Shown here: piece after piece, positions 20,994 to 55,805 of the stretch | How positions within the stretch are numbered: position 1 is the stretch's first letter | Layout of the letters: the number at the start of each line of letters is the position of its first letter | Source of the DNA: Gautieria morchelliformis | Lineage: Eukaryota > Basidiomycota > Agaricomycetes > Gomphales > Gomphaceae | NCBI GenBank assembly: GCA_015179125.1 | Contig: WHVA01000174.1 | Coordinates: 62,001-126,000, forward strand | Direction of reading: 5' to 3' | Length of the DNA stretch: 64,000 nt | Position numbers and translations under genes: made by a program | Notes under the pieces: generated by a model | Told to the model about the DNA's origin: nothing | Seen by the model: only the letters and a program-made list of their open reading frames with translations | The model's database searches: none

Positions 20994-23900
20994 ATGAGCC
21001 AAGGTGGGTGTCTGCCATGGTGGCGTGGATTATACTTACCACCTGGAAGATGACACCTACCAATACGACGACGGTGGATATGATGACGATGCGGAATACG
21101 AGGAGATAACTCAGGAGGATTGTTGGACTGTCATATCATCGTTCTTCGCAGAAAAGGGTCTGGTCCGGCAGCAATTGGACTCTTTCGATGAATTTGTGCA
21201 AAATACGATGCAGGAGCTCGTGGACGAGAATTCTCGTCTCATTCTTGATCAAGGAGACCAACATACGGGACATGACATGGACATGACCGTAAGTTCTAAC
21301 GTTGACGCTTTGTCAGGACTTGTGTGTTCTTAATGTCCGAGAAACATGTAGCGGCGCTACGAAATCGAGTTTGGGCAGATATATCTGTCACGTCCTACGG
21401 TTACGGAAGCCGATGGGAGTGTAGTGCCGGTCTTTCCACAGGAAGCTCGCCTGCGGAATTTGACCTATTCCGCGCCATTATACATTGAGATGAAAAAACG
21501 CGTCCTCGTGGGTCAGGAAGACCCTAGTAAGCCATTCGGTGAAATGGATTGGCGAGTTGAAGGTCCAGAGGATGAGGGTATGACCAAAGTGTGGATAGGC
21601 AAAGTAAGTCCTTTGGGTATTCTGTGCACCACAATCACTGATGTTATGTCCAAGGTGCCTATCATGCTTCGTTCCAACTTTTGCATACTTTCCGATCTTA
21701 GCGACTCAGATCTGTACGACTTGAATGAGTGTCCATACGATCAAGGCGGTTACTTTATCATCAATGGTTCGGAGAAGGTGCTTATCGCGCAGGAGCGTAT
21801 GGCTGGAAACCATGTATACGTCTTTGCCAAGGCACAGCCGTCACCAATCAATTTTCTCGCGGAGATTCGAAGCGCTGTCGAGAAAGGTGGAAAGACAGTC
21901 AGTACGTTCCAGGTGAAAATGTTTCATCGAAGTCAAGAAAAATCAGTAAGCAAATAAAAATCTTACTTGGCTTATCCATGCACTCATTCGCTCGAAAGTC
22001 TGGAAATGTCATCAAAGCTACCATACCCTACATTAAGACTGACATTCCAATTTGGGTTGTCTTCCGCGCCCTCGGCGTTATTTCAGATCGTGACATCCTT
22101 GAACATATCTGTTACGATATGCAAGACGCACAGATGTTGGAGATGCTGAAACCTTGTATCGACGATGGCTTTGTTATCCAGGATCGAGATGTGTGTTTAT
22201 GTCTAGTCCTCACATGGGGATCATGCTTAGAGTCTCTCAGGTCGCTCTTGATTTCATCGGCAACCGTGGTACGAGCATAGGTCTGTCCAGGGATCGTCGT
22301 TTGCGTTATGCGCAAGAAATTCTCCAAAAGGAAATGTTACCTCATATTGCCATGTCTGAAGGTGCCGAATCAAAGAAGGCATACTTTTTCGGATACATGG
22401 TTCACCGTCTTCTGCTCGCTGCACTGGAACGTCGAGAGCTTGACGATCGCGACCACTTCGGCAAGAAGCGGCTAGATTTGGCAGGGCCCCTCCTTGCCAG
22501 CTTGTTCAGAATGTTATTCCGGAAACTTACGAAGGACGTCTATCGATATTTGCAGAAGGTCATTACCAAACTGATAGGTTTATTCTATACTTACACCAAT
22601 CACAGTGTGTCGAAACTCACAAGGAATTCAACCTCAACCTTGCGGTCAAGCCCAACACCATCACCAATGGCTTGAAGTACTCGCTCGCTACTGGGAATTG
22701 GGGTGACCAGAAGAAGTCTATGTCCTCCAAGGCAGGCGTGTCACAGGTTTTAAACAGATATACATTTGCGTCAACACTTTCTCATCTTCGCCGGTGCAAC
22801 ACACCATTGGGACGTGAGGGCAAAATTGCCAAGCCGCGGCAACTTCACAACACACACTGGGGCATGGTGTGCCCCGCGGAAACACCTGAAGGACAGGCTT
22901 GCGGTCTTGTCAAGAACTTGGCGCTCATGGCATGCATTTCTGTCGGCTCCCCTTCACCCCCCGTCATCGAGTTCCTGGAGGAATGGGGTCTAGAGTCATT
23001 GGAAGAAAATGCTCACTCCGCAACGCCGTGCACGAAAGTATTCGTAAACGGGGTATGGCTTGGTGTTCATCGTGACCCGGCTAATCTCGTAAAGACAATC
23101 AAGAAACTACGTCGCAAAGATGACATTAGCCCTGAAGTGTCCGTTGTTAGGGACATACGGGAGAGAGAGCTAAGGTTATATACGGACGCCGGTCGCGTCT
23201 GTCGGCCACTATTCATCGTCGAAAACCAGCAGCTCGCACTCCAGAAAAAGCATATCAAATGGCTACAGCAGGGATATCGTGATGACGATCCTGCGCACGG
23301 CCAGTATAAGTGGGATGACATGGTGAAGGGTGGTATCATCGAGCTTTTGGATGCAGAAGAAGAGGAGACCGTCATGATTTCCATGACGCCAGAGGATTTA
23401 GAGAATTCACGATTACAGCAACAGGGTTTGCAGACCAATACCAATGATGGCGAGTTCGACCCCGCAGCGAGGCTGAAGTCTGTCATGCATGCGCACACGT
23501 GGACTCATTGTGAGATCCATCCTAGTATGATTCTGGGGATTTGTGCTAGTATCATCCCGTTCCCGGATCATAATCAGGTGAGTATGGCGATCGTTAGGCG
23601 TCCGTTCTTTGTATACTTACGGTAACTACTAGTCTCCTCGTAACACGTATCAGTCAGCAATGGGTAAACAAGCCATGGGTATCTACCTTACCAATTTTCT
23701 CATTCGTATGGACACGATGGCAAATATCCTCTACTATCCCCAAAAGCCACTCGCTACAACTCGGTCAATGGAATATCTGAAATTCCGCGAATTGCCAGCT
23801 GGTCAAAATGCCATCGTGGCAATCCTGTGTTACAGTGGTTATAACCAGGAGGACTCTGTCATAATGAATCAGAGCTCCATTGATCGTGGTCTCTTCCGCA

Positions 23901-25243
23901 GCATGTACTATCGAAGCTACATGGACATGGAGAAGACATCGGGTATCCATCAGCTTGAGGAGTTCACGAAGCCCACCCGAGACACGACTCTCCGGATGAA
24001 ACATGGAACTTATGATAAACTTGAGGATGATGGACTCATCGCCCCCGGGACTGGTGTGAGGGGTGAAGACATCATTATTGGCAAAACAGCGCCCATTCCG
24101 GCCGAGAGTGAGGAGTTGGGACAAAAGACAAGTAGTCATACTCGACGCGATGTATCCACCCCGCTGAAAAGTACTGAGAGTGGTATTGTGGACCAAGTGC
24201 TGATCACCACGGGTTCAGATGGGCATCGGTTTGTAAAGGTCCGAGTCCGCTCAACTCGTATTCCTCAAATTGGGGACAAATTCGCGTCACGGCATGGGCA
24301 GAAGGGAACAATTGGCATCACTTATCGACAGGAGGACATGCCTTTCACTGCTGAAGGCATTACTCCTGATATAATTATCAATCCTCATGCTATTCCGTCA
24401 CGCATGACCATCGGACATCTTGTTGAATGTTTGCTTTCCAAGGTCGCAACGCTCATCGGCAACGAGGGCGATGCTACTCCGTTCACAGAACTAACGGTGG
24501 AGTCAGTCTCGACTCTCCTCCGAAAACAAGGGTATCACTCACGAGGGTTGGAGGTGATGTATCACGGGCACACTGGAAGAAAATTGCAGGCCCAGATTTA
24601 CTTGGGCCCGACTTATTATCAGCGGCTGAAGCACATGGTGGATGACAAGATCCACTCCAGGGCTAGAGGACCGGTGCAAATTCTGACACGCCAACCTGTG
24701 GAAGGTCGAAGTAGGGACGGAGGTTTACGTTTCGGGGAGATGGAGGTGTGTATGTTGTCAGATGAACCTTTCGATTTGCTAATGTTTTACGGCCAGCGTG
24801 ATTGTATGATTTCTCACGGCATCGCTGGCTTCCTAAAGGAGCGTCTCTTTGACGCAAGCGACGCCTATCGGTTACACGTATGCGACATGTGAGTCGTGAA
24901 ACGCTGACGGGTGGTTCATATCTCATCCTTCTTTATGCAGTTGCGGTCTGACGGCGATTGCAAACCTCGTTTGTTTTTCCTTCTTTTCCAAAGTTATGTC
25001 TACTTGTTAATTTTCCACGTGTAACAGAAAAAGCAGAGCTTCGAATGTCGAGCTTGTAAAAACAAGACGCAATGCTCACAGCTGTATATACCTTATGCTG
25101 CGAAGCTCCTGATCCAGGTCAGGCTGTTTATTATTTGGCTGTTTGATCTTGACACTCACCACCTGCCACGTCCCTAGGAATTGCAAAGCATGAACATCGC
25201 TGCTAGGTTATATACTCAGTCGACAGGTCGTATACGTGACTGA
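20994..25243 (+). CDS. RPB2: DNA-directed RNA polymerase II, second-largest subunit
   Basis: Twelve exons: 20994-21003, 21050-21288, 21352-21603, 21655-21945, 21999-22190, 22241-22558, 22606-23577, 23633-24745, 24797-24888, 24941-24968, 25028-25117 and 25178-25243, giving 1220 residues, the expected RPB2 length. It forms half of the Pol II active-centre cleft. Seen: the protrusion ([16 protein letters not shown]), lobe and fork ([20 protein letters not shown]), the [19 protein letters not shown] hybrid-binding motif, [29 protein letters not shown] and, in the C-terminal anchor, a zinc site from two CxxC pairs (CDICG and CRAC). The last residues [12 protein letters not shown] end at TGA 25241. 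Exon 1 is only 10 bases (MSQ plus one base); it was inferred from phase and conserved start, so it is less certain than the rest. Confidence 0.97.
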
Positions 25244-26915: not shown

Positions 26916-27129
26916 TGTAAATAACCCGTGTATCTACATGTACATTAGTTATTACATAATCCCAGTGGGCCCCTTAGGGACCCACTGTATAGTTTATGCG
27001 TGGGAACCGGCTAGTGGTCCCCATCGCATCTTACTCTTACCTGTCACTACGTAGCATTCAGAATACCACTCATTGGTCAAGTTCTGCAGTGCCCTTGTGA
27101 TACAAGGTCCTAAGATCGACATCTTTACA
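26916..27129 (+). repeat. 5' LTR of element A
   Basis: 214 bases, TG...CA ends; nearly identical to 34276-34488. It includes a palindromic cagtgggcc...ggacccactg. Confidence 0.93.
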
Positions 27130-27255
27130 CCTTTTTGAACTATCCTGCGGTTGATCGCCACGCGACCAACCGATAGTGGATTCGAAGCAATCTTGAAAAA
27201 GATCGCTGCGTCGACGACTAAACATCGTTGAGACCCTCCAGTAGACCCTCTACTG

Positions 27256-29951
27256 TTGGCTGCGAGCATGATGATTCCACGCAGTCGAAGACGGACACGA
27301 GCGACGAGCTCGAGATCCACACCCCAGGCGCAGCCCAGTGACACGACAGCTGACGCTATCCTGGACCAAGGGACCAGGATGATAGAAGACGGAGAGATCG
27401 TAGATCTCACCGCCCTCGTCCCCTCAGTAGGGAACGAGGAAAACCCCGACCACGTCTCGTCGAGCGTGGCTGAAGAAGAGACGACGCCGAGCGATGAGCC
27501 GGCACCGCCCCCCCACCTCCCTCTGCCCGAGGACAAAGGAAAGGGCAGAGAAGTCTCGCCGTCGTCAGACGGTAGAGCAACAACGTCGAGACGGGCACAA
27601 AGCCACGACTCAAACCAACGCTCTCAAAGTAGAGCGACGACGATCGTCCCTGAAGGAGGACGACGGCAAGAGAGACGAGCCCCAGACAATAGTCAGGACT
27701 CGGAATACTCAAGCTCTAGTCGTAAGAGCTGAGGGCTCACGCCATCGACCATGAGACGGCAGAGGCCCTGAACAAACAGGTGCAGGCTGCGCTGCACCGA
27801 AGCACGCTGACGCGCCACAAGCACGATCAGCTGGCATTGCAGCTCGACAACGCCACCGCCGCCCTAATGGCAATCGGCAAGGAACTCCACCAGGCAGAGG
27901 AGATCAGGCTGCAAGATGCAGCCACGCTGGAGGACGTCCAGAAAGCACTCCGCCCACGCGGGGAACGCGACGCAACTCGTCCGAGCTCGCGACAGTCCGC
28001 AGCTAACGAACGCGGTCGCGATGCGCGCCGAAATGAGCGAGACAAGCAGCGAATGCCGCCGCCAGCCGTCCCGGTCGAACAGGATGTAAGGTTCAGGAAT
28101 GAACCTCAGGAGCAACCGGCTGCCCCAACGGACAGCTGTAAAACGATCCAACAGATCGTTAGGGATCAGGTCGCCTCAGAGCCTGACTCTGGAACGACAA
28201 CCAAGAGCTTAGAGCTCGAAGTCGCACACTGGCAGCGTAAGGAAGCCGCAGCCGCACGCCGCCACACACGGGCACTCGAGCTACTAGCCAAGAACGCCGA
28301 AGAGACGGTGGCCCACAGCCACACCGCTCAGCTGCCCGACGAGCAGCTCACGCAAGCCGTACAGGACGCACGGCAAGCGTGCGCTGCCTACAACAGCAGG
28401 CTACGGATCTGCAACGCGGGACTGACTGGGGACACCAGGCACAAAACACCCCCGGAAACGAGAGCACAAAATGCTCCCGATCCCGAGCCCGGGGCCCGTC
28501 AGGGCATATAACAGCTTACCCCGCGCGGCGTCACAACCGCGCGAGCGATCCATGGCCCCAACGGAAGGCCAGGGAACCCTGACCAGGCCGACGTCGTACC
28601 AATGGAGCCGTACGTCGGGATCACGCGGATGATCCGCGTGGCGTTGGCAGACGCCGCGGACACAGACCCGGAGAAGTCTGTGCTAGCGAAGGCCGGCGTA
28701 AAATTGGCCCACCCCGAGCCATATGCAGGGGGATCGGACTCGAAGAGTTTGAAATCTTCGTGGCAGCCATCCTACGAGGCTGAAAATGAATTGCCTCCTA
28801 GGACCAACCAGCATCGACATGCAGGTCTGCTATGTGGGCACTCGCCTCACCGGCGAAGCCCAAGAATGGATCCTTCGAAACGTTGAATGCTTCGATCGCC
28901 AGGTCCGCATCTGGACGCTGGAATCAGTGATGCAAGGCCTTCAAAAGAGGTTCCTGCACACACTGACATACCATCACGCCTCGAATAAGTTCGACGTGGT
29001 CATGCAAGGCATGAAAACCGTTCAGGAGATGCTGAACGAGCTCACGAAATACGCGGCACGTATGATACAGCCGCCAGACGAGTACACGTTCCGGAGACGG
29101 TTCGTATCTGCGCTACGCGAAACGCTGCGCAAGAGGTCCTCAAAAAGGGCTATAATGCCGAGAGCAGCTCAATAGAGCAACTCTTCGAGACGGCCTGGAT
29201 GATCGAGGAGGCATCCCGATATAACATGGGGATGCGCCGCGCAGAAAGCGCAGCAGCAACGGCTAGCGCCGCCCGGCTCACAGGGAGCAAGCCGTTGACA
29301 CAAACAGGCCTGACCAGGCCCAGCCTGTTCGCAAGAAGCGGAACAGGTCAACGGATACCGCCCTCACGCCCAGCACAAGCTGGACGCCCGCCTGAAGCTA
29401 AACAGCCTCAAGCGTCAGGATCGTCCCCGCGACCTGCCCCACCGACGAAAACGTCGGGCCGGCCCAATGACAGGCCCAGCGGCAGCCAAAACAACACCGC
29501 ATGCTTTGAATGCGGCCAACCTGGCCACAAGAAGGCAGAATGCCCCCGGCTTAGGTCCGGTATAAGGACAGCGGCCGTGAGGCACGACGGTGAAGCCGAG
29601 GATCCGGAGACGGATCCCGATCAAAGCTCTCTTCAACAGATTGATGAAGAGGGGGAGGGTGATCCCCAACCCAACGACACTCCGGATAACGGAGACACGC
29701 CCGCTGAAGAGTGGGACCCTGAGCCGTCCCAATACTATGAATGGGACGAAGAGGTGGAGGACACCGCCTACAGGTCCAGCCGATCAGATTCGCGCTGGAA
29801 GACGAAACCGCCACGAAAGTCATGGCGGCACGCACATCGGTCACGCCAGATAAGGCGGCCGAGCCGGTGTATCACCACCGAAGCAAACACAGAACGCGGC
29901 CAACGCGTCCGCGTAGTGAGAACCGTACCCTATCGGGGTACTGGGAAATAA
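27256..29951 (+). pseudogene. Gag region of element A with CCHC zinc knuckle
   Basis: Open segments 27256-27732, 27780-28511, 28786-29175 and 29199-29951 lie in different frames. The N-terminal part is charged and low-complexity. The segment around 28800-29130 resembles a retrotransposon gag capsid domain (GEAQEWILRN, ASNKFDVVMQGM, FRRRFVSAL). The knuckle CFECGQPGHKKAEC (C-x2-C-x4-H-x4-C) lies at about 29500. Frame changes between segments indicate loss of function or sequencing indels. Confidence 0.8.
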
Positions 29952-32354
29952 ACGGCGTAAAAGCCCACTGCCTGCTAGATAGCGGCAGCGAAGGGGTACT
30001 GCTGTCCCCGATCACGGAGCTACAGGGATGAAGACATTCTCCCTGGAGCAACCAATCGCGCTGCAGCTAGCCTGCATAGGCAGCCGTTCCACGATCAACT
30101 ATGGAACGAACACGACCATCAAGTTTGGTCGCGGGACATACGACGAATACTTCGACGTAGCAAACGTCGAATATTACGACGCGATCTTAGGGACACCGTT
30201 CCTAAGGAGATTCGGCATAACCCTGGACTTCTCGAGCCCAGGGACGATCCGCAAGGGAAACGAGGTGATCCCCACGGGCAAGGTCTCATTCGACGACGAC
30301 GAATCGAAGAACGAGGACAAGGGGCCACGGGTGAGCAGAATCACCCAAGCGCCGACGCCGAACCTGGCTCATTGAAGCCAGGAGGACGAGTCGCGAGACG
30401 ACTCGTCCTCGAACTCACCCTACGGTCGTAGGGAGAGACGCTCTCACCTAACGGTGAAAGCGATGGGAAAGAGGAAAGCGGGCCCGTGCGCCGCGGGACC
30501 TAATAGACGCCAACAGCGCCTAATGGCTTCTAAGCCAACCACTACCATCATCCTCACGGATGATGACCTTCCTCGCCTCCGCGAGGAATGGATGGAAAGA
30601 ATCGCTGACCTAGTCAGTGGAATTCCATTAGAACTCCCGCCGCTGCGGGAGATCAACCATGAGATCAACCTCATCGATCCCAACAAGCACATGCGGTATC
30701 GACTACCGAAATGCCCCGAACACTTCCGAGAGGAACTGTCGGCAAAAATAGAACGATACACCACTGCAAAGTGGTGGATTCCGGCAGTAGCGCAGCAGGC
30801 AGTGCCCATGCTGTGTGTGCCGAAGAAGAACGGTACGTTGAGAACCGTCTTCGATCTGCGCCAGCAGAACGAAAACACGGTGAAGGACGTCACGCCCTTC
30901 CCGGATCAGGATATCATACGCAGCGACATGGCTCGCTGCCAATATCGAACTAAACTCGATATGTCAGAAGCATACGAGCAGATCCGGATCCATCCGGATC
31001 ACGTAGCAAAGACAGCCTTTGCCACGATCCTCGGCACCTTCAGGAGCCAGGTGATACAGATGGGGGACTGTAACGCCCCATCAACATTCCAACGGCTGAT
31101 GACAGCCATTTTCCGCGACTGCATAGGTCGCTTCGTCCATGTATACATGGATGACATCTTCATATTCTCGCTCTCAATACAAGAGCATGAAGAGCACCTC
31201 TACATCGTCTTTGACAGACTGAGGAAGAACCACCTCTTTCTGAGCAAGAAAAAGGTGGACCTCTACTCCATCCGAATGGAGTGCCTCGGCCATATGATCG
31301 ATGGCCGAGGGGTACATGCCGACGAGGATAAGATGCAACGCATCCGCGAGTGGCGCAGGCCACGGACGTTCAACGACGTCCAGCGTTTCCTCGGGCTCGT
31401 ACAGTATCTGGCACACTACATGCCGGATGTTAGCGCATATACCACCCCGCTATCGGGCTGTGCCGTAATAACCGTCCATTCGAATGGACGCCACTGCTCG
31501 ACAAATGCTGGCAAAGCATTAAGGCGTTGGCCTGTAAGGCCCCGATCCTGCGTCCAGTAGACGCAAGGTGCCCAGAGCCGATCTGGGTGATCACCGACGG
31601 ATCAAAAGCCGGCGTCGGTGCGGTCTACGGCCAAGGTCCTGACTGGAAAACTTGTCGACCGGCCGGCTTCTTGTCAAAGAAGTTCAGCGTTGCTCAGCAA
31701 CACTACCGGACTCACGAGCACGAGACTATCGCGGTGCTCGAGGCTCTCATGAAATGGGAGGACAAACTGCTGGGGCGAAGGTTCACCCTCGTCACAGACC
31801 ACAAGGGACTCGAGTACTTCGAGACCCAAAAGAGCCTATCTGACCGACAGGTCAGATGGTGGGAGTTTCTCTCACGGTTCAATTTCAACACCGTTCATGT
31901 TGACGGTGTAGAGAACAAGGTAGCGGACTGCCTGTCGCGCTACTACGAGAGTGACACGAGTGATGACAATCACCCGGACCACGTCTTCGTGAACGCGGAT
32001 GCGCGTCTAGATCCGGACGGTGAGTTATTGCCCACCGACCGGTATGTCGAGCTGCGAACAGCGGCGACAAGACGCTCTAAACGCCTCGCTGAGAAGACAG
32101 AGGCGAGAGTAACGGAAGCCGCCGCATTAAACGAGGGCTCACCAGAGCCCGCGCACGTCGCCGCGTCAAGCGACGACGACGATGACGTCAGAGCCATCGC
32201 CGCAGGGAATGACGGCGCACCCCTGCGCCGGATCGTTGAGCAAGGCGTAGACCTGTCTAAGGTCTACGAGACGCGTACCATAGGGACACCATGTTCACAA
32301 AGATCATGGCGCACCCGGACGCGCACCCGAGATTCGGGATCCGGGACGGGCTGA
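29935..32354 (+). pseudogene. Pol of element A: protease, reverse transcriptase, RNase H
   Basis: The aspartic protease active site appears as CLLDSGSEG at about 29970-29997, with a frame change afterwards; the protease fold continues in 30028-30375 (YYDAILGTPFL). Reverse transcriptase occupies 30454-31470, with LRTVFDLRQQN, TKLDMSEAYEQI and the catalytic box VYMDDIFIF at about 31140-31165. RNase H follows in another frame (31527-31950) with VITDGSKAG, HEHETIAVLEAL and VTDHKGLEYF. These are the usual Ty3/gypsy domains in order. Loss of a continuous frame between protease, RT and RNase H makes a functional polyprotein unlikely. Confidence 0.87.
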
Positions 32355-33246
32355 TCTGGACTAAGAATCAGCTCAAAAGAGACGTCATTGCCGTCCCCCG
32401 CTCTGTTCTTCAAGGGGGAAGGAGGCTGATCGAAATTATCATCGATCGGGCACATCAGATAGTCGGCCACTACGGCCATCTGAAGACTTCGAACTACGTT
32501 CAAGAGCATATTGGTGGCCGGGCATGAGCCCAGACATAGAAGCGTTCTGCACATCGTGCGCGAGGTGTCAGATGACGAAAACCGGGCCACAACGGCCCAA
32601 AGGCCTACTACACAGCCTACCCATTCCGGATAGGCCGTGGCAGTCGATTGGCATCGACTTCATGGGGCCCCTGCCCAAGTCCAACACTGTGACTACCTGA
32701 TGGTAGTCATCGACCGACTAACGTCGCTCGTACACCTCGTGCCAACCACGACGAGCGTGTCAGCCAAGGGAGTAGCCTGGCTGTTTCTGAAAGAGGTCAT
32801 CCGACTACACGGAGTTCCCGACTCCATCGTCTCGGACAGAGACCGAAGTTCACATGATCTTCTGGCGTGAACTTAGTGACTCATGGGGACTAAGCTCCTC
32901 ATGTCAACTGCCTTCCATCCCAAACGGATGGAGCCACCAAGCGGGCAACCCCTCGATCGGCCAGATATTGCGTGCGGTCGTCAGAGACGATCAGAAGGAT
33001 TGGGCATTGAAATGCCCAATGGTTGAGGTCTCCCTCAACAGCAACGTCAGCGTGACCACAGGGTTCGCACCTTTCGAGCTTCACCGTCGCACACCATCAA
33101 CGACCCCGCCTTCAGCGGCGGGTAGCACAGATCGAGGCCCAGTACATCGGGCCTGGCGTGGCCCTGCCTCCACCGGTGGGGACAGTTCACCCTCCCTACC
33201 CGGGGGAGGGAGTGATCATACCACTCGGAGACCCACCGATCTCTGA
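32291..33246 (+). pseudogene. Integrase of element A
   Basis: The zinc-binding HH-CC module is split over frames (AHQIVGHYGHLKT, then CTSCARCQMTK near 32545-32575). The core domain follows with IGIDFMGPLP (first Asp), VVIDRLTSLVHLV and VPDSIVSDRD (second Asp). The continuation near 32900-33080 resembles the third-Glu region (VEVSLNSNVSVTTGFAPFEL) but in a shifted frame. The order and motifs are diagnostic for a gypsy integrase; several indels interrupt it. Confidence 0.78.
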
Positions 33247-33360
33247 GACGGGCCTCCTCCACGGCCGGTAGGAAAGGCCCAACAGCGTTGTACTCAATGG
33301 TATGACGTCTGCCCGCTCGATGACCCACGCTTCGTCGAACTCATAGCGTGGGCAAAAGAA

Positions 33361-34233
33361 ATGCCGCAGCTCGCGCGTACGTGCAAGATGATCGGCGTAT
33401 TCAAACGCATCGAGCGCGAACAATGCGCTCGCAATCCCAAAAGGGATTGTCTCGTGATAGCGGGTGGTACCCCGCACGACATCGTGGCCATCCTGAAGGG
33501 TTGGATACACAACCCTGAAGGGATCCCATCCGCCATCCGTGACAACGCGGACGGCACCTTCAACCTAGAAGACATGGACGTCTGGATGTGGTTGAAGGCC
33601 CTCGCGCCCCGGGTCAAAGGGGTCGCATCACCGCTCAGGGCGAGGCTACTCGACCTCTTCGGCTCGACAGACCAATGGTCGAGCCTCGTCGACGCCAGGG
33701 AAGTGCTGATGCCTCAGAGCACCACCCTGCGGCTCTCAATCACGGGCCCATTCCCTGTGGAGGGTCGAGCCGGCCCCGACATCCCACTCGCGGAGATCAC
33801 GAGATGGTTGGCCCGCTACGCGGGAGTCACTCGCGAGCGAGCGGCGCGCATTGAACATTATGTTCAATGCAGCATCACCGCCACGGCATTCAGTGCCGCC
33901 GCCCGCGAGGGCCAACAAAAGGTCATCGAGACCAGCCACGTGAGGGCCGCGGTGCCGCGACCCCTCGCTCATGCCCAGCTCGACCGAGAGCTGGCGCGCT
34001 TCCGGCCCCCTCCTCAAACTGAGGACCCGGCCGTTGAGGCCATGCTCCGCGAGGACACGGGCCCCAGCACCCAAGCGGAGACTGCCGCTAGTGGTGAGGC
34101 TGACCAGCCTCACCCAATCACCACCGATGACGCGGAGGTGCCCCCGGAGGGGTCACGTGCTCCTCTGGCCCCGTACGACGATGACGTCATCATATCGGCC
34201 ACTCTAGAGGACTCCCTCATGGACGACCTCTAG
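33361..34233 (+). CDS. Extra sense-strand ORF between integrase and 3' LTR of element A
   Basis: A continuous open frame of about 290 codons (MPQLARTCKMIGVFKRIERE...) ends just upstream of the polypurine tract. The N-terminal half is basic and contains VIAGGTPHDIVAILKGW and EDMDVWMWLKALAPR; the middle is helical with an Arg-rich stretch; the C-terminus is acidic (DDDVIISATLEDSLMDDL). I recognise no envelope-like membrane segment, chromodomain or zinc motif. It is the longest intact frame of the element together with RT, so it may be a real accessory product. It carries many of the perfect hairpins, including a 23-base palindrome at 33848-33870. Function unknown. Confidence 0.55.
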   Translation: MPQLARTCKMIGVFKRIEREQCARNPKRDCLVIAGGTPHDIVAILKGWIHNPEGIPSAIRDNADGTFNLEDMDVWMWLKALAPRVKGVASPLRARLLDLFGSTDQWSSLVDAREVLMPQSTTLRLSITGPFPVEGRAGPDIPLAEITRWLARYAGVTRERAARIEHYVQCSITATAFSAAAREGQQKVIETSHVRAAVPRPLAHAQLDRELARFRPPPQTEDPAVEAMLREDTGPSTQAETAASGEADQPHPITTDDAEVPPEGSRAPLAPYDDDVIISATLEDSLMDDL

Positions 34234-34275
34234 GAGTAGTAGTTAACCCCTATAGTTATCTATAGAGGGGGAGGG

Positions 34276-34488
34276 TGTAAATAACCCATGTATCTACATA
34301 TACATTAGTTATTACATAATCCCAGTGGGCCCCTTAGGGACCCACTGTATAGTTTATGCGTGGGAACCGGCTAGCGGTCCCCATCGCATCTTACCCTTAC
34401 ACTGTCACTACGTAGCATCAGAATACCACACATTGGTCAAGTTCTGTTGTGCTCTTGTGACTTAAGGCTTAAGATAGATATCTTTACA
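34276..34488 (+). repeat. 3' LTR of element A
   Basis: 213 bases, preceded by a polypurine tract; it matches the 5' LTR with a few substitutions and small indels. Confidence 0.93.
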
Positions 34489-41489: not shown

Positions 41490-42152
41490 TGTTACGTATC
41501 GAGATTTCCGCTAAGTCGGAACTGGAAAGGACAGTGGCTTCAACTTGTAGGTTGCGCCCCCAATGAACTATCGTCCTAGGTATTTCGGAAATGGGTCGGA
41601 AGTCGGAATGCACTGAACTGAAGGTTGGTCGGAACTTGGGTTGGAACCGAGGCGGAAGGCGGAAGACGGAAAGGCAGAGGGACTGAGGACTTGCTAGACT
41701 TGCTGTGCTAAGAACAGGAGATGGAGCGAAGGAAATCAAGTATCGAAGGTGATTATCTGATTGCAGAATAACAGAAATACATGAGGGGTTTTTATACAAA
41801 GCGCAGAAACAACAAGTAATGGTATGATACTAAGCAAGTTCCGGAGAGTGCGGGAATCGGATAGACATACGGGGTAAGTAACTAATACGGAACAATGGTT
41901 GACAAGGGGGGTGCAGGGTAGGGTAAGTACAATGGCAAAGAACAAGGCGGGTAAGTACAATAGGCATCGGAAGAAATGGAACTACGGAAATGGTATCTTG
42001 CTGTGCTCAGGGTCGAGTACGGGGGCCGGGCCAGGGGTACTGAAAGAACAAGGGAGGAGGGTTGCGGATGTTGCGGATGTCGGAATAGAGTCAGAGGTGG
42101 CGCGGAGGATGTGCGGAGGTGGCGGAGATGGTTGATCGGAACAGTCGTAACA
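41490..42152 (-). repeat. 3' LTR of element C
   Basis: 663 bases with TG...CA ends (TGTTACG, CGTAACA); within its first 230 bases cggaa occurs eight times. Confidence 0.93.
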
Positions 42153-42273
42153 GTATCTCCCTTTCAAGGTCGAGCCCTGCGAGACCACAGATTGGGTCAC
42201 GTGACCTGTGAACAATACGCGTCGGAGTTCGAAAGAAAGGCGGGAGAAACATCACGTCGATTTCTGATCCATC

Positions 42274-43475
42274 ATGAGCTCTCTTCCTGAATTCTCGAAA
42301 ATGACCAGTGCTCAGATGAAAGAGCATTTTGCGAACGTTCTCGCTGAGAAGGAGCTGGCGGAAAAGCGCGAGGCCGAGGAGGCGGCGAAAAGAGAGAAGG
42401 AACGACTGGAGGAGGTGCGCAGGGAGGAAGAGTGCAGGGAAAAAGAGCGCAAGGACCAGGAGGCACACGATCGGCTGGAACGCGAGCGCGAGCTTGAGCG
42501 CATCGAGCACGAACGCGAGGAGAGGGAGGCCGAAGAAGCTGCGGAGAAGCTTGCGGAGGAGCAAGCTGCTGCGGAAAAGGCCACCGTGGAGAAGGGGGAG
42601 GAAATTCGCGAGTCGCAGAAAGTAAGTGTTTCTTGTTCTTGATGGTATGGAGTTGACCATCGGAACAGGAAAAGGCTGCGGACGCGGACCAGGAGTCCGA
42701 GCGGAGTGGACCTCCGTCAGAAGCGTCGCCGGAAGAAACCCCGAGGCCAATGAACAAGGGCAAAGGGAAGGCGACGGCGGAATGGCGGGCGGCACAGGAG
42801 GAGAAACAGCGCCGGAAGGAGAGGGCCAAGAGGAAGGCTCTGGAAGAAGACGGCGCATCGCAGCCTAGCTGTGATGCCTGTCTTGAGAAAGGTCTTCCGT
42901 GCGTATGGGATTTGGCGGGAAAGGCCACGGCCTGTAATCGTTGCAAGGACGCGAAGCGGGCATGTGTGGTCGACGGGTTTAAGGCCAGGGTGATGGCCAA
43001 GCGGAGGAAAACCGGAGGATCGGAGGTTGGCTCGGAAAAGCCTACTCAGGGCGCGCGGAAACCCTTGTCCAGGGCTGCCAAGGCGAGGGGAGTCCAGGAT
43101 GGGCTGGAGGCGAGCGGAAGTGGGACGACACGGGAGGAGCAGGTGGCGGATCCGCTTGCGGATATCGCCAGGTCGCTCCGGGGACTGCTTCGACAGGGGG
43201 AGCAGGTGTTGCAGATGCAACACCACTTCTACCTGGCAGTCGTGGATCGGCTTGGTGCATACGAGGACCAATTCGACCAGATCGTTGCGGAACTGAGGTG
43301 GATGCAGGAGAGGGACGACTCGGAAGTGGAGGCGGAAGTGTCTGAGGGCGAGGTCCAGGACGTGCAGAGGTTTGCAGAGGAGCATGGGGGAACGGAAATG
43401 TGGAGGATCCGGAAGCGGAAGACTGGGCGGGCTTTGGTGAGGACACGATGGAGGATGACTAGGGGTCGGAAATGA
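42274..43475 (+). CDS. Antisense zinc-cluster protein encoded inside chromovirus C
   Basis: Two exons, 42274-42621 and 42669-43475, with intron 42622-42668 (GTAAGT...AACAG), give an uninterrupted 384-residue protein on the strand opposite to gag-pol. Residues 1-116 are a highly charged Glu/Arg/Lys coiled coil (many EREREL-type heptads). A second charged region leads to a perfect Zn(II)2Cys6-type cluster: CDACLEKGLPC, ten residues, CNRCKDAKRAC (bases 42870-42965), followed by a basic stretch (KARVMAKRRKTG). A helical segment (DIARSLRGLLRQGEQVLQM) and an acidic C-terminus follow. Zn2Cys6 domains are fungal DNA-binding modules, so a DNA-binding or regulatory role is an inference. The gene lies between the chromodomain end of pol and the 3' LTR, and element D has a counterpart at the same place. 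Start chosen: first ATG of the frame. Confidence 0.85.
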
Positions 43476-43591
43476 CATGTAGAATATATTTCTTGGAACA
43501 TCGGAACTAGAGTAGTGAAAGAATTAATCGGATTTGACTTGTGACTGAAAGAGTGAAAACGGAGTAGGATGGTGGAAATGGTGGGGACAAC

Positions 43592-44893
43592 TTAATGCGC
43601 GAGAAGGGGTCCGGGCTTGGCAGGGTATGCCTTGTGGAAATCTGAGACGAGTTCGGAGGCGTGGTCGAGTTCTGTGGCGGAAATCCAGGAAGTCTCTTCA
43701 TCGGTGTTTTCATAGCCTGCCCACTTGACTAGGTACTGGAGTTGGCAGCGGTATCGTCTGTCTAGCTTGGAGTTGAGAATTTCCGAGATCTCATATTCCG
43801 GTTCTCCGTCGATGACGACTGGCGGAGGCGGAGGTTGTTCTTGATTCGGAATTGTATTCGGAACTGCGGGCTGAAGCATGGACACAGGGAACACCGGGTG
43901 TACTGCGCGCATATTGTCAGGAAGTCTGAGAGTGAAAGAACGACTGCCGGCCTTAGCGATGATCTCGTAAGGGCCAAGGTATTTCTCAGAGAGCTTCTTC
44001 GAGGGGCGAGTGGTGTGGAAGTTTTCAGCTTTGACAAAGACTTTGTCGCCTATCTCGAATGCCAGTTGCGGAAGTTGTTTCCGATCGGCGGAAGTTTGGT
44101 ATCTCTTTTGTGCAGCGGAAATGTTCTCTCGGAGGTGCTGGTGAAGGTCGTCGAGTTCCACAACGAAATCTCGGGCTCTTGCAGAGGCGAGGTTGCGTTC
44201 AGGATGGATGGTGAGATTCGGGTGGTAGCCCTTGTTGGCGTAAAAGGGTGAAATCCCGGTGGTAGCGGAAGGCGCATTGTTGTAGGCAAATTCCGCGAGC
44301 GGAAGGAGGTTGGACCAATTGCTGTGTTGATAGTTGCAATAGACGCGGAGATACTGCTCAAGGGTCTGATTAGTACGTTCCATTTGTCCGTCTCCTTCGG
44401 GGTGATAACCGGAAGTGAAATGGAGCTTCATGTCGAGAGCCTTGCCGAGTGTGCGGAAAAACGATGACACGAATTCTGATCCACGGTCGGAAGTGACATG
44501 GGAAGGGATTCCGTGCTTGGAAAAGACGTGGAGCACGAAGAGCTGTGCGAGCTGGGCGGAAGTGATGGTGTCGTAGGTCGGAATAAAGATGGACTGCTTT
44601 GTAAGGCGGTCAACGATCACTAGAATGGTATCATAGCCAGATGACTTAGGAAGTTTCTCAATGAAATCCATGGATATCGAATTCCACGGTTGTTCCGGGA
44701 TCGGAAGTTGCTTCAGGAGGCCGTAGGGTTTGTGACGTTGGGGCTTGGCGCGCATACAGGTGGTGCATGACTTGCAGTAGTCTTGGACCATCGTGCGGAG
44801 GAGAGGCCAAGTATATGTACGTTGGATTATGTCGAGGGTTTTGTTCTGGCCTTGGTGTCCTGAGAGCGGATGATCGTGGCTTTGTTGGAGCAC
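43592..44893 (-). pseudogene. Integrase with C-terminal chromodomain (element C)
   Basis: A continuous frame of 433 codons: zinc module (HDHPLSGHQGQNKT, CKSCTTCMRAK), core with SMDFIEKLP (Asp), VTSDRGSEF (Asp) and EGDGQMERTNQTL (Glu), a GPYEII-type C-terminal domain, and a chromodomain (EYEISEILNSKLDRR, QYLVKWAGY, ETSWISATEL). The chromodomain places the element among chromoviruses, whose chromodomains target methylated-histone heterochromatin. The frame is intact here, but the polyprotein upstream is broken. Confidence 0.9.
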
Positions 44894-44936
44894 GCGAAGT
44901 CGTAGATCGTTGGTATCCGGAACGTAAATCCGGGAC

Positions 44937-47453
44937 TTGTACCGGAGAAATCCGTTGGAATCGAGGGACCATCAAGTACTGGTGGGGTCATCGAGGTGGG
45001 CTGCGGAGATGGGGTCGGAACGAACTGCGGAACAGATGTCAGAATGGAGAGACTCAGTGTCCATAATGATTGAGGCGCGGAGTAGTGGAAACTGCAATGC
45101 TGTGGCACGCAGGGATGATGCCAGTTGCTCAGTAGAGAATACTGGGCGGAAGTTGTGCGGATTAACGCTGGCATAGTCGCTACTTCCCTCTTTTGGGTAG
45201 ACGTCCCAACGTCTAGTGAGTGCGTCGGGTTTTGCTCCGAGCTTTCCGGGGCGGAAGCGGATCACCATGTTGAACTGTGAGAGATATTCAGACCAGGGAC
45301 TTGACGGCGAGTCAAAATCTTAGTAGTCGCGAAATACTCAAGGTTCTTATGATCCGTTACAACATCGATCGGATAGGTTGGACCTTCGAGGTAGTGTCTC
45401 CAAATTTTGAAGGCTTCGAAAATCCAAGTAGTTCCTTATCGTGGACGTCATAGTTGAGTTCCGGGGTGGAAAATGTGCGGGAATGAAAGGCGATCGGATG
45501 AATTTCTCTGTCGTCGGGGGAAATGATGGAAAGAATGGCGGCTAGCGCGTAGTCGGAAGCGTCGGTTTCGAGTACAAGTTGGGCATCAGGAATCCAGAAA
45601 CCGAGTATGGGAGCCGTAGTGAAGGCCGATTTGAGGGCTTCAAATGCGGAATGGCATTCTGGAGTGAAATTCCATGGGGCACCCTTCCTGGTGAGACGCG
45701 TGAGCGGAATAGTAATGTCGGAAAAGTTATAAATGAAACACCGGTAAAAGTTGGCGAAGCCAAGGAAAGACTGCACATCCTTAACACGTCGGGGTTCCGG
45801 CCATTCTTGAATTGTCTTGACCTTGTCCTCTGCCATGGTAAGACCTGTTGGAGAGAGGATGTAGCCGAGGTATTCGACCGTGTCGCGATGCCATTCGCAT
45901 TTCTCTGCTTTTGCGTAGAGATGATGTTTGCGGAGACGGCGGAGTACTTCGCGGACATGTTCCCGATGTTTTTCCGGTGTGTCGGAATAGGTGAGGATGT
46001 CGTCAATGTAGACTAGGACGCATACGTCGAGGAGGTCGGAAAATACGTCGTTCATGAATCGCTGAAAAGCAGCGGGAGCATTGGTTAGACCGAAAGGCAT
46101 GACAACCCACTCAAAAGCACCGTAGTGGGTGCGGAAAGTGGTTTTCCACTCGTCACCTTCCGGATGCGGACAAGGTGATAAGCGTGCCGGAGGTCAATTT
46201 TGGTGTAGCGCCCTGCGGGGAATGTCGAGTAGGTCGGAAATGCGTGGAAGCGGATATTTGTCCTTCTTAGTGAGGGCGTTGAGTCCGCGGAAATCGACGC
46301 AGAGGCGGAGAGATCCATCCTTCTTCTTGACGAAAAGGACCGGAGCGCCGTGCGGAGACAGCGAAGGGTGGATGAAGCCCATGTTGAGGTGTTCATCGAC
46401 GAACTCGCAGAGAGTTTGGAGTTCACTTTGCGAAAGGGAGTAGATCGGTCCAAGGGGCGGAGATGCTCCTTCTTCCAAATCTATCTTCAGATCGTAAGGT
46501 CGATGTTCAGCAGGTTTGTCGGCTTTGGCCTTATTGAACACGTCCGGGAAGTCACGATATTCTTCCGGAACTGAGCTCATGTCGACCGTAGCGGAAGTCG
46601 AGGCGGAACGAGCCTCGACTGAAGCCGAGTCAGAAAGGTGAAGCTGGAAAACGGTCGTATCTTCTTGCCGTTGCAATACTTGGAAAGCGGTGGCGGAGAC
46701 GAGCGCAATTCGAGGAGCTTCGAGGGGCGGAGGTGCTAAAGCGGGACCGGAGTGTGGAACTGAATCCACGAGCGGAGTTGCAGAAGAGGCCTGAGCCATC
46801 TTTGCGGACGACGTCGGAATAGAAGGAAGTTGATCCGGGGTACGGAACTGTATTTGACCCAATGCCCAGTTAATCGATGGATTATATCGGGTGCGCCAAT
46901 TGTGTCCTAGTACAACGGAACAGCTAGCATCTAGCAGAGTAACTTAAAATGTAACTTCATGGTTGTCCCCAGTAGCGAAATGGATAGACAGATCCACGAC
47001 TTGAGAAATTGCCGTGTTGGAAGATCCGTCGAAAAGGCGGAGTGGAATTGTCGGAATGTTGCAGGTTGGAAGTTTATGTTTCAAAACAAAGTCGGAATCG
47101 AGGAAACAATGAGTCGAACCGGAGTCGACCAATGCTGTGAATGGGGGTGCAGAAATTGTGTCGGAAGTGAGCGGAACAGAGAGGGAGTCGGAGGATGAAA
47201 GAGCAGATGTGTTGAGTTTAACCTCGTTTGTCGCACGAATGGGGTCAACACAGCCCTCAGCTCGTGCGGAGGCCGGAGGACTGCTGACTATTTTTTTGCA
47301 TCCGTAGCGGGAGCCGCTTCGGATTTCTCTTCCATCTTCACCGCACGGCCCTTGGCCTTTGCAGCGGAAGCAGAAGCTCAGGTGCAATCGTGAGCGACGT
47401 GACCTCCTTTGCCGCAGAAAAGGCAAAGGTTGTTGTCCATGCGACGCTGGCAT
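44937..47453 (-). pseudogene. Protease, reverse transcriptase and RNase H of element C (broken)
   Basis: Protease (VDSGSTHCFLDSDF) at about 47120-47090; its frame is ended by a TAA near 46944, beyond which [16 protein letters not shown] continues in the same frame. Reverse transcriptase spans 46862-45357 in two frames: [20 protein letters not shown], then MPFGLTNAPAAFQRF and VYIDDILTYS. RNase H shows ETDASDYALAAILS and ends in HDKELLGF, with further frame changes near 45400 and 45270. Domain order is standard for Ty3/gypsy. The nonsense codon and several indels make it non-autonomous. Confidence 0.87.
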
Positions 47454-48681
47454 TCTACAGGGGTTAGTTTTCCGTCCTTCCCAAGTTTGTCGGAAAGATC
47501 CGGAGTACTCTTCCGGACGTTGGTGTTGGAACCAGAGGCCTGGTTATTGCGAGGGGTGGAGTTGTTGTTCCGGTTGCCGGAGTTGGATCCGGAACTGTTG
47601 TTGTTGTTGTTGTTTCCGGAGTTATTGTTTCCGGAATTAGTCTTCTTCTTGTCTTTGTCAGACTTCTTGTCGGAAGACTTGTCGTTCTTGCTCTGGGCGG
47701 AAGTTTCGCGAGCGATCTTGGAATGTCTTTCCCAGTAGCGCGAATCGATGGATTGGGCAAGGTTGCGGAGGTCGGTAAGGGTGGCGGGTTTTCCGACGCG
47801 GGCAATTTCATCCTTGATGCGGGATGGCAAGCCCATGTAAAACTGGCGTCGGAGTGCGGCTTCTCCCCATTGGACTCGAGGAGCAAGCTGCTGGAACGTG
47901 ACAATATATTTAGCTATCTTATGAGTGTCTTTCATACGAAGCTTATCGAGTTCATTTTCCGCATCGGCTTCCATGTCAAATGGTCCGAAGTTGCTGCGGA
48001 GTTCGGAAACGAAGTTGTGGTAATCGTTGGCCCAGTTGACGAGAGCGAACGGATCCATGAGGGCGGGTTCGAAATAGTCGAGAGCGTGCCTCGGAGATAG
48101 GAAAGGGCATAATTGACCTTTCGTTCGTCGTCGGGAAAGGCGTCGGGACGATCACGGAAGTTGAGTTGAAGCTGGACCAGAAATGGTTGGAGCTTCTTGG
48201 GGTCGGAACTGTCGAACTGATATGGTTCGTGGACCTTTGTCTTGGGGCGTGGTGGTGCTTGGGCCGGGCGCTGAAGTTGTCCGGCTAGCATGGCGATGGC
48301 TTGTGCAAGATCCGGAACTGGCGTGGGAGGAGCTGGGTTGGCGGGAATCTGAGGTGGAATTGGAGGTGGAGGACCGCCTGGGGGGCCGCCTGGTGGTGGT
48401 CCTGGTGGAGGTGGTGGTGGTGGAGCTGGGCGTCGGAATGACGCTGCTGTTTGTTCGCCGCTGCTACTCGTCGAATTCCCGTCATAGTTGGGATTGTCGT
48501 CGGGATTAGCGTCGGGAACTTCTTCGAAGCGTTGTGGAATAGCATCGGAGAGCTCATCGTCAGCATGAGAGCTGCCAGAGGGTTCCGCGTGCCTTGGTGC
48601 TGCAGATCTAAGACTGCCAAAATAAGAGAGAGCTTCGACAGCTCCTGCTCGAGCTGAGGTAGCTGTGGTACGAGGAGGCAT
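47378..48681 (-). pseudogene. Gag of element C with CCHC knuckle, one frameshift
   Basis: Starts MPPRTTATSARAG at 48681. After a Pro-rich low-complexity region the capsid-like domain begins (LRTFL-like LQLNFRDRPDAF, VNYALSYLRG). At about 48098 one base appears to be missing, and the frame continues as MDPFALVNWANDYHNF, ELRSNFGPFD, then an Asn/Ser-rich stretch and the knuckle CLFCGKGGHVAHDC at the end (about 47385-47425). The Asn-rich run is encoded by gtt repeats on the plus strand. Confidence 0.87.
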
Positions 48682-48714
48682 AGTGATAGTTATCGGGTGG
48701 GAATCAGATAATAC

Positions 48715-49389
48715 TGTTACGTATCGAGATTTCCACTAAGTCGGAACTGGAAAGGACAGTGGCTTCAACTTGTAGGTTGCGCCCCCAATGAACTATCGTC
48801 CTAGGTATTTCGGAAATGGGTCGGAAGTCGGAATGCACTGAACTGAAGGTTGGTCGGAACTTGGGTCGGAACCGAGGCGGAAGGCGGAAGACGGAAAGGT
48901 GGAGGGACTGAGGACTTGCTAGACTCGCTGTGCTAAGAACAGGAGATGGAGTGAAGGAAATCAAGTATCAAAGGTGATTATCTGATTGCAGAATAACAGA
49001 AATACATGAGGGGTTTTTATACAAAGCGCAGAAACAACAAGTAATGGTATGATACTAAGCAAGTTCCGGAGAGTGCGGGAATCGGATAGACATACGGGGT
49101 AAGTAACTAATATGGAACAATGGTTGACAAGGGGGGTGCAGGGTAGGGTAAGTACAATGGCAAAGAACAAGGCGGGTAAGTACAATAGGCATCGGAAGAA
49201 ATGGAACTACGGAAATGGTATCTTGCTGTGCTCAGGGTCGAGTACGGGGGCCGGTATCTGGAGGTGGCCAGGGGTACTGAAAGAACAAGGGAGGAGGGTT
49301 GCGGATGTTGCGGATGTCAGAATAGAGTCAGAGGTGGCGCGGAGGATGTGCGGAGGTGGCGGAGATGGTTGATCGGAACAGTCGTAACA
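48715..49389 (-). repeat. 5' LTR of element C
   Basis: 675 bases; identical in structure to 41490-42152 except nine transitions and a 12-base insertion near 49254. The following five bases (aagga, 49390-49394) are the right target-site duplication. Confidence 0.93.
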
Positions 49390-53963: not shown

Positions 53964-54521
53964 TGTTACGATACGATCCGTCGTAAGGTTGACCGAGGTC
54001 GGGAGCGGAGCCCGAGGTAAGGTCCGAGGTCACGGGGCGAGGTTTGGATGGGGAAGTCGGAGAGGGACTTGGCTTCAGCTTATGTGCTGCGCCGACCCTA
54101 TGCACGAGTCCCAACTTCGGAGGCAAACGAATAAGAGGCGAGGTTTGGCTTAAGAGGTGAGGCTTAGAAACTAGCTAAGGATCAAAGGGATACGATAGTT
54201 GATTTTCAGACTGAGGAGTAGGAATTGCATACAAGGGGGTTATATACCGGGCGAGGGTACGAGTCAGGGGTGAACATTTTAGTGGAGGTCAGGGCGAGGT
54301 CAGGAGACCGAGGTCAGGGCGAGGTAATATACGAATGATGCGTGATGGAGCGGAATCAGTAACTAAGGGGATACGGGCATGGGATCAAGGTCGGATATGA
54401 GCTAAAGCTTGGGCTCGGGCTCGGATAAGGATCATGTGTACTCGGGCACGAAATATCACTAGGCTCGGGCTCGGAAGAAGGTTTTACCGGTAAGTAACCG
54501 GCCAAAGGCCGGGTCCTTACA
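53964..54521 (-). repeat. 3' LTR of element D
   Basis: 558 bases, TGTTACG...CTTACA; it matches 60906-60958 joined to 61364-61873. Confidence 0.93.
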
Positions 54522-54861
54522 GTATCCCCTCCTTATGGCCGAGACCCTCGAGGCCGTAATATGAACAAGGTTCGCCTATCCTTGAATCTAGATCCCGGCC
54601 CGATGTTAAGTAGCCGGAAAGGCGAAGCTTAAATTGTAGCCGAGGTTAGATAAAAGGGTGGGTAGGAGGCAGCGAACCCAAGTGCCAACGAATTATGGTG
54701 CGCCCTCAAGCCCTCTTTAACTTAGCCGTCGACGAGAACAGCGCGACAAACGTGTTCGACCAGACACTACTGTCTGAGGAGAACGGCGCCTCGGGCGGGG
54801 TTATCCCGAGGATCGACCCGAAGTTGGCGTACTGCCAATTGATGAGACGGGGGCCATTGAC

Positions 54862-55805
54862 ATGCGGCAGCCGTGGCAGGAAGGGCCAAGTGGCAAAAAG
54901 GTGAGTACAGTTGTTGTCTGGTCATGGACGCTGCTGATTCGTACAGTATAAACGCATGTTATTCTCGTACCACCCGACCGACTTGTCCCTATACGGGTAC
55001 AAGCTCGCCGACGGGGGACCTCGTGAGTGGCAACTCACGACCAAGGCCGAGGCAAGGTGCGTGCGCTGCGAAGAGGGCGACTATACGTGCCTTCGGGCCG
55101 TTAGTCTCGACTTCGGCCTCGCCGACCAGGGTGCCTGCGTGTGGTGCAGGACACGCTCCTTGGGCTGTAGCATAGCCCAAGGTCGCCGCAGCAAGGCGAC
55201 CTCAGGAAAAGGTCAGGCGGGTGCTGTGGGCAAGAAGTGAGGAGGCCGAGGATGGACCGAGGCCGAGGAAAGAGGCCAAGGTTCGGGACGAGGTCGCAGA
55301 GGATGACGACTCAAGCGACTGGGTCAAGAGGAACCTGGAGACGAGGGTGGAGCGTATGGAAGCAAGGTTGAGCGAGGAGAAGGGTAAGGGGTCAGAGGGA
55401 GCAAGGCATAGTGAGGGGAAGGAAACCGAGGTGGAGGAAACCGAGGTGGAAGGTCGGAGGGCGAAGAAAGACAAGAAGGTGAAAAGGTCGGAGCGAAGTG
55501 TGGAGATGAGGGAGTTGATAGCGGCAGTGAGGGACATGGGACAGAAGGTTGGCGAGGTTGGGGAAAAGGTGTGTGAGTTGTTGGGGGAGTTTAGGGCGGC
55601 GAACGATAGGATGAATCGGGCGGATGTGGAGTTTATGAGGATAAGGAGGAGGCGTAATTATTTGAAGCGGATGCAGGGGGCGAGGGACTTGGCAGATTAT
55701 GGAGGACATGGGGGTCTGGTGGAGCGAAGTAGGAGTAGTAATGAGGAGGAGTCAGGCGAGGGTAGCGAGGAGAGCGAGGGAGAGGATATGAGGATGGTGG
55801 AGTAA
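54862..55805 (+). pseudogene. Antisense zinc-cluster gene inside chromovirus D (one frameshift)
   Basis: Exon 54862-54900 (MRQPWQEGPSGKK), intron 54901-54946 (GTGAGT...TACAG), exon from 54947 with SYHPTDLSLYGYKLADGG and two cysteine motifs, CVRCEEGDYTC and CVWCRTRSLGC (55057-55167), separated by 15 residues: a Zn2Cys6-like spacing slightly longer than usual. This frame ends at TGA 55240, but a one-base shift near 55230 opens a frame to 55805 with a charged coiled coil, MRELIAAVRDMGQKVGEV and an acidic Ser/Glu tail, as in the element C protein. An additional open stretch at 54695-54860 in another frame may be the original N-terminus. Position and orientation are the same as in element C. Function unknown; DNA binding is an inference. 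Confidence 0.7.

Follow-up and report, generated by a model that had tools for sequence, protein, structure and literature searches.

Element C, a chromovirus in the genome of the fungus Gautieria morchelliformis, carries on the strand opposite to pol a gene of two exons encoding a product of 384 aa; this gene is under purifying selection and is almost certainly a genuine accessory gene of the element, kept by selection. On balance, the antisense protein is probably an element-encoded DNA-binding regulator of its own kind, for which transcription, splicing, binding, and the direction of the effect are inferred. A strongly diverged counterpart of the gene is present in a second chromovirus, E2, located in the same window, i.e., the whole 64,000-nt stretch of contig WHVA01000174.1 that was analyzed (Table 1).

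Table 1. Features of the 64-kb window (positions counted from its first nucleotide)
Feature	Position	Strand	Remarks
Host gene, Rpb2 domains 6 + 7 (RNA polymerase)	23660-24892		Control
Gypsy A	26916-34400		No antisense six-Cys gene
Chromovirus C, whole element	41490-49389	-	
3' LTR of C	41490..42152	-	TTCCG 13 sense, 2 antisense
Spacer, 3' LTR to antisense ATG, C	42153..42273	+	Polypurine tract beside LTR; presumed promoter
Exon 1, C antisense gene	42274..42621	+	116 codons; start codon present in 29/30 copies
GT-AG intron, C antisense gene	42622..42668	+	47 nt; predicted splicing; sites kept among copies
Exon 2, C antisense gene	42669..43475	+	Six-Cys cluster, then helix region, tail
Six-Cys cluster C-x2-C-x6-C-x10-C-x2-C-x6-C, C	42870..42965	+	Half-clusters apparently swapped
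Pol end of C	43592..44893	-	Integrase, SH3, chromodomain matches
5' LTR of C	48715..49389	-	
3' LTR of E2, matching part	54012..54521	-	ACCTCG 8 sense, 0 antisense
Exon 1, E2 antisense gene	54695..54900	+	1 nt shorter than in L071, hence broken in the window copy
Exon 2 region, E2 antisense gene	54947..55805	+	Two open stretches, 54956-55240 and 55221-55805
Six-Cys cluster, E2 antisense gene	55058-55168	+	

Element C can be classified as a chromovirus (Ty3/gypsy) on the basis of an integrase with a C-terminal chromodomain, LTRs, and a target duplication; TCCTT is found on the outer side of both LTRs, which differ at nine of the first 650 aligned sites. The coordinates of the antisense gene, its length of 384 codons, and its position between pol and the 3' LTR were given correctly in the earlier note, in which the gene was also described as intact. 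This holds for the frame of the window copy, which is open, but not for its end, as the final approximately 25 codons of exon 2 are out of frame relative to the other copies and the acidic tail is missing. The exon 2 of the window copy aligns with that of the L010 copy in two pieces, of 240 and 22 residues, and an acidic tail of the ...EDWAGFGEDTMEDD type is present in the copies whose frame runs to the end. In exon 1, the residues K, E, and R are abundant, as judged by eye. The antisense promoter would be located in the spacer beside the 3' LTR, which over 93 nt is 87–89% identical to the corresponding sequence of two relatives, L069 and L070, the adjoining U3 being far less similar.

A DNA search of the 122-Mb host genome yielded 44 matches to the C antisense gene. 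Thirty loci, the window copy included, were fetched via the gene itself, copies of the element without the gene being therefore uncounted, and in 27 of them the LTR, the gene, and pol lie side by side, the LTR being partial in some. The three exceptions are L013, which reaches the contig end before pol, L034, with no match on the LTR side, and L035, with none on the pol side. The ATG is conserved in 29 of the 30 copies, the GT of the intron in all 30, and its AG in 29, and of the 18 runs of gaps within exon 1, 10 have a length divisible by three. A single-match test showed exon 2 to be unbroken in 14/30 copies, as against 7/30 for the final 433 codons of pol; the result of this test for exon 1 (3/30) was set aside, because low-complexity exon 1 breaks the matches. 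No spliced genomic copy spanning the exon junction was present among 69 matches, and no pol was found near eight loci with a canonical Zn_clus domain (L001–L008). The relatives grade into one continuum, with at least 153 matches to exon 2 of C, at least 167 to the L069 type, and at least 161 to a stretch of E2, these being overlapping sets and lower bounds from one genome; most of the E2-stretch matches listed are stop-free. That the element encodes a protein of its own, as proposed earlier, is borne out by the LTR-gene-pol arrangement, the conserved ATG and splice sites, and a dN/dS far under 1. In L067, where no pol match was found, long stretches resembling tandem repeats flank a copy of the antisense gene.

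For the spliced frame of C, the median pairwise dN/dS is 0.29 (27 copies, 349 pairs, with L013, L035, and L038 excluded), the values for exons 1 and 2 being 0.28 and 0.29, respectively, and for pol it is 0.15 (350 pairs). The five alternative frames of exon 2 give 1.30, 1.02, 1.27, 0.43, and 1.26; the frame with 0.43 is located on the opposite strand and has its third codon positions in common with the gene frame. In the single pair of E2 antisense genes, the window copy and L071, dN/dS is 0.21 for exon 2 and 0.32 for exon 1, and the values for the five remaining frames of exon 2 are 1.46, 2.13, 1.03, 3.03, and 0.29, the last value again belonging to the third-position-sharing frame. Neutral decay among the copies, named in the earlier note as the outcome contrary to its proposal, is thus not what is observed, dN/dS being well below 1. 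The frame of C is more than a chance one, since it is selected; dN/dS, the splice sites, and the six-Cys scan described below rule out a chance open frame. It is likewise hardly credible that a chance frame or a captured fragment of a host gene is drifting neutrally: many copies are broken, 16/30 failing the exon-2 test, but pol fails even more often (23/30, though the stretch tested is longer), and dN/dS, the splice sites, and the counterpart in E2, a chromovirus with a pol 66–77% identical to that of C at the protein level, all argue against drift. Also very improbable is a function residing in antisense transcription itself, through dsRNA or by interfering with sense transcripts, with the frame being incidental. 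Some elements are regulated by antisense transcription, according to the available text of PMC7264820, whereas in the present case selection is seen at the protein level in two families and the splice sites and cysteines are conserved.

The cysteine spacing reported in the earlier note, C-x2-C-x6-C-x10-C-x2-C-x6-C, is exact and matches that of Zn2Cys6 clusters, with a linker of 10 residues in C and 15 in E2. When all six frames of the window were scanned for this spacing with a linker of 5–20 residues, two matches were obtained, in the C gene and its E2 counterpart; 30 simulated 64-kb sequences gave none. No Pfam family exceeded the cut-off in the window protein, Zn_clus (PF00172) being unmatched, and the Zn_clus scores of L069 and L070, 17.9 and 14.3 bits, are below the cut-off of 21. 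The N-terminal halves of the C, L069, and L070 clusters align to the second half of the Zn_clus profile, and no match to it was found for the E2-type halves or for the C-terminal halves of C and L070. The half-clusters look swapped, i.e., placed in reverse order relative to the canonical Zn2Cys6, which would explain why Pfam misses the C protein. Pfam matches below the threshold, obtained for the window protein with Macoilin (E 0.51) and Saf4_Yju2 (E 7.6), were not accepted as real, and a sequence search of PDB gave no meaningful match. Among the best 10 structure matches of a model of L070 exon 2, ranks 2–10 are Zn2Cys6 DNA-binding domains, the matches being short, with Z of 2.0–3.6; a Zn2Cys6-type fold is predicted for the antisense protein and is very probable. 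Its identification as a Zn2Cys6 protein can be upheld as far as the canonical spacing is concerned, but has to be qualified in view of the swapped order of the halves and the lack of a Pfam match over the cut-off. In its cysteine spacing and predicted fold the protein resembles Gal4, Ppr1, Hap1, and Leu3, from which it differs in the swapped half-clusters, the sub-cut-off Pfam score, and being encoded by a retrotransposon. The antisense proteins of C and E2 align with each other over only 30 residues near the cysteines, in a shifted register (E 1e-4).

The pol ends of L069 and L070 are 92–95% identical to that of C at the DNA level, and their antisense exons 2 are about 32–39% identical to that of C at the protein level. 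The dS values for the antisense gene versus pol are 1.87 vs. 0.18 for the window copy and L069, 1.21 vs. 0.33 for the window copy and L062, 0.92 vs. 0.18 for L069 and L070, 0.45 vs. 0.31 for the window copy and L036, and 0.088 vs. 0.054 for the close pair of the window copy and L010, the large values being near saturation; the pol values of L014, which look misframed, were not used, and L067 offered no pol for comparison. The difference in synonymous divergence between the antisense gene and pol of the same copies points to a reassortment of antisense modules with gag-pol backbones through recombination, which would make the elements mosaics, a faster mutation of the antisense gene being the alternative explanation. 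Co-divergence of U3 and exon 2, considered as a signature of a protein and its site, is hinted at by the comparison of C with L069 and L070, but it is unsupported within the C family, in which the Spearman coefficient over 24 rows is 0.39 for U3 and exon 2 and 0.74 for R-U5 and exon 2.

Both C and E2 are densely occupied by a short CpG-containing word. In the whole of C, TTCCG is present 91 times in the sense and 24 times in the antisense orientation, with an expectation of 35 (second-order Markov model) and a score of 30.9, and in the whole of E2, ACCTCG is present 38 and 4 times, respectively, with an expectation of 8.5 and a score of 27.3. With 100 simulated sequences, the highest score reached was 10.3 in the case of C and 12.1 in that of E2; the scores are 6.4 for gypsy A, 5.2 for a copia-like stretch, and 7.1–10.2 for four other stretches. 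The LTRs of L069 and L070 contain TTCCG at sense:antisense ratios of 19:1 and 12:2 (for C, see Table 1). The gag-pol regions were compared with 1000 shuffles in which the protein and codon usage were fixed, the open stretches used for C and A being in part slightly overlapping. In C there are 38 copies of TTCCG (13.0 ± 2.8 expected) and 19 of CGGAA (8.5 ± 2.3 expected); in E2, 16 of ACCTCG (5.6), 18 of CCGAG (8.3), and six of TTCCG (5.4). The words of C and E2 (CGGAA; CGAGG/CCGAG) are thus about 2–3 times more frequent than in synonymous-codon shuffles, whereas in the gag-pol of gypsy A none of nine motifs is enriched relative to the codon shuffles, and the host genes lack the words. The antisense genes are enriched too, that of C in CGGAA (15 vs. 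6.3 expected) and the E2-like one in the E2 word (CGAGGT, 6 vs. 2.4; GCGAGG, 9 vs. 3.7). Codon usage or codon-pair bias is an unlikely source of the words, given these shuffles and the fact that the words of C and of chromovirus D, described below, exceed expectation in each codon phase. Selection on single word sites is unsupported, as the CpGs of the words are retained among C copies little better than other CpGs (0.757 and 0.720). Gypsy A has at 33361-34233, between the pol matches and the 3' repeat, a 290-aa sense frame with no Pfam match, possibly an extra gene.

Chromovirus D (L072–L074; 2653-3600 of L072 and 1-1137 of L073), which is apparently very abundant, has a 457-codon gag and a pol that is open over a long stretch, its compared pol stretches being only 33–50% identical to those of C. 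No six-Cys pattern was found in the D loci read (L072–L074), and its gag-pol shows the strongest enrichment of all, with CGGAA/TTCCG present 79 times vs. 23.7 expected, in both orientations. The word result is therefore mixed: D has the word of C with no antisense gene detected, and gypsy A has neither. The word in D may be recognized by the C/L069-type protein acting in trans, much as VANC6 acts on the unrelated AT9TSD1 (PMC5735166), or by a different factor. An origin of the words in mutation, e.g., in a decay of CpG that spares some contexts, and not in selection of sites, is improbable. It could account in part for D, where the CpGs outside the words are depleted (188 vs. 297.9 expected) and those within CGGAA are in excess, the deficit being weaker in C (200 vs. 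224.8) and E2 (169 vs. 194.0), and it agrees with the similar CpG retention in and outside the words; however, C and E2 differ in their word within one genome, gypsy A and the host genes have none, and in C the total CpG is undepleted (313 vs. 303.1) and the strand bias strong. Mutation thus fits part of D, and C, E2, and A poorly.

According to the interpretation preferred here, that of a regulator encoded by the element, transcription of the antisense gene would start at a promoter adjoining the 3' LTR, and the gene product would be a nuclear, dimeric, sequence-specific DNA binder in which a half-swapped Zn2Cys6 cluster is combined with a long helix and an acidic tail. Upon entering the nucleus, the protein would bind many copies of the CG-containing word of its family across the LTRs and the body of the elements, CGGAA in the case of C and the L069-type relatives and a CGAG-type word in the case of E2, and when bound it would keep the family copies transcribable, by activation or by lifting of silencing. 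CGG is the triplet read by canonical Zn2Cys6 proteins. The proposal of the element's own DNA-binding regulator gains from the selected element gene, the Zn2Cys6-like model of a relative, and the CGG-containing words saturating C, but loses from D, with its word and no detected gene; moreover, only two independent families with the gene were available, and the words of C show a strong strand bias, which would not be required of a double-stranded site. The more specific proposal that the family words are the binding sites of the antisense protein is put forward tentatively, its likelihood being somewhat below even.

It is rather unlikely that the accessory protein is real and the words unrelated to it, these being sites of a host factor or another trans-acting factor, the same in C as in D but not in E2, while the protein acts elsewhere, in nuclear import, integration, or RNA export, like retroviral accessory proteins. 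Such roles have been proposed for plants, as far as the available text of PMC7264820 goes, the word is present in D, where no antisense gene was found, and the 91:24 strand bias of the C word would suit a role at the RNA level. On the other hand, the coding sequences of C and D are enriched in both orientations, the protein is predicted to fold like a DNA-binding domain, and the words are missing from gypsy A and the host genes. In its fullest form, the preferred interpretation of an element-encoded regulator becomes a self-recognition system, in which the diversifying half-swapped Zn2Cys6 protein of each family would un-silence its own kind via a word written into the LTRs and, at synonymous sites, into the coding genes, modules would be exchanged between backbones, and the abundant gene-less D would have evolved the word as a means of using the protein in trans; taken as a whole, this is unlikely. 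An effect consisting in anti-silencing in particular is likewise unlikely.

The view expressed in the earlier note that gypsy elements normally encode only gag-pol needs correction, as gypsy elements of plants have previously been found to contain antisense ORFs. In the accessible parts of the two relevant papers (PMC7264820, PMC11963269), the plant aORF-3R (gene23 of Grande, RIRE2, TRP28 of Retand) is described as antisense, located between pol and the 3' LTR, present in most copies, and of unknown function, and the Grande antisense protein as nuclear and expressed from its own promoter. The C gene resembles aORF-3R in its antisense location between pol and the 3' LTR and in being kept in 27/30 of the copies fetched via the gene, and differs from it in belonging to a fungal chromovirus, in the Zn2Cys6-like cluster, in the lack of TRP28, in the measured selection, and in the presence of family words. 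Membership of C in the Retand lineage was rejected, as its pol has a chromodomain and the antisense protein has no TRP28 match.

By analogy, VANC of the Arabidopsis VANDAL elements is the closest working analogue. According to the available text of PMC5735166, VANC21 and VANC6 bind different words, each arrayed in its own family, and the unrelated AT9TSD1 carries the VANC6 word and is affected by VANC6. What C and E2 have in common with VANC, as presented in the accessible parts of PMC5735166 and PMC10398659, is a TE-encoded diverging protein and a dense family word in one orientation; a TE-encoded protein under selection and a dense family-specific word are both present in C and in E2. However, VANDALs are MULE-type DNA transposons with words located mainly in noncoding tandem repeats, whereas the words of C and E2 also fill gag-pol, and unlike VANC the antisense protein is predicted to be Zn2Cys6-like. 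Yet another comparison is offered by the TET/JBP dioxygenases, found in fungal DNA transposons and, in the available part of PMC12730594, not reported in retrotransposons: their carriers are likewise fungal TEs with a gene proposed to counter silencing, but TET/JBP is an enzyme.

No fungal antisense Zn2Cys6 gene was found in titles and the beginnings of abstracts of the open-access literature, though one may still be in print. To the antisense genes of LTR retrotransposons known from plants, the fungal case adds measured selection, a predicted fold of the DNA-binding type, and a candidate target, and the function of such genes becomes testable with a pair of purified proteins and a pair of DNA words. 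Should the words indeed be the targets, a retroelement would have embedded protein-binding sites inside its own coding sequence, and this would represent a novel kind of self-recognition by TEs and perhaps also a case of anti-silencing outside plants.

Searches for relatives of the C protein, or of alignment A1, gave no match in other species. The E2-like query had one protein match, to a hypothetical protein of Gautieria morchelliformis (85% over 30% of the query). In P0002, a G. morchelliformis protein annotated as hypothetical, the last approximately 85 residues are E2-antisense-like and the N-terminal part is unrelated; P0002 is possibly a host–TE fusion or a gene-model error.
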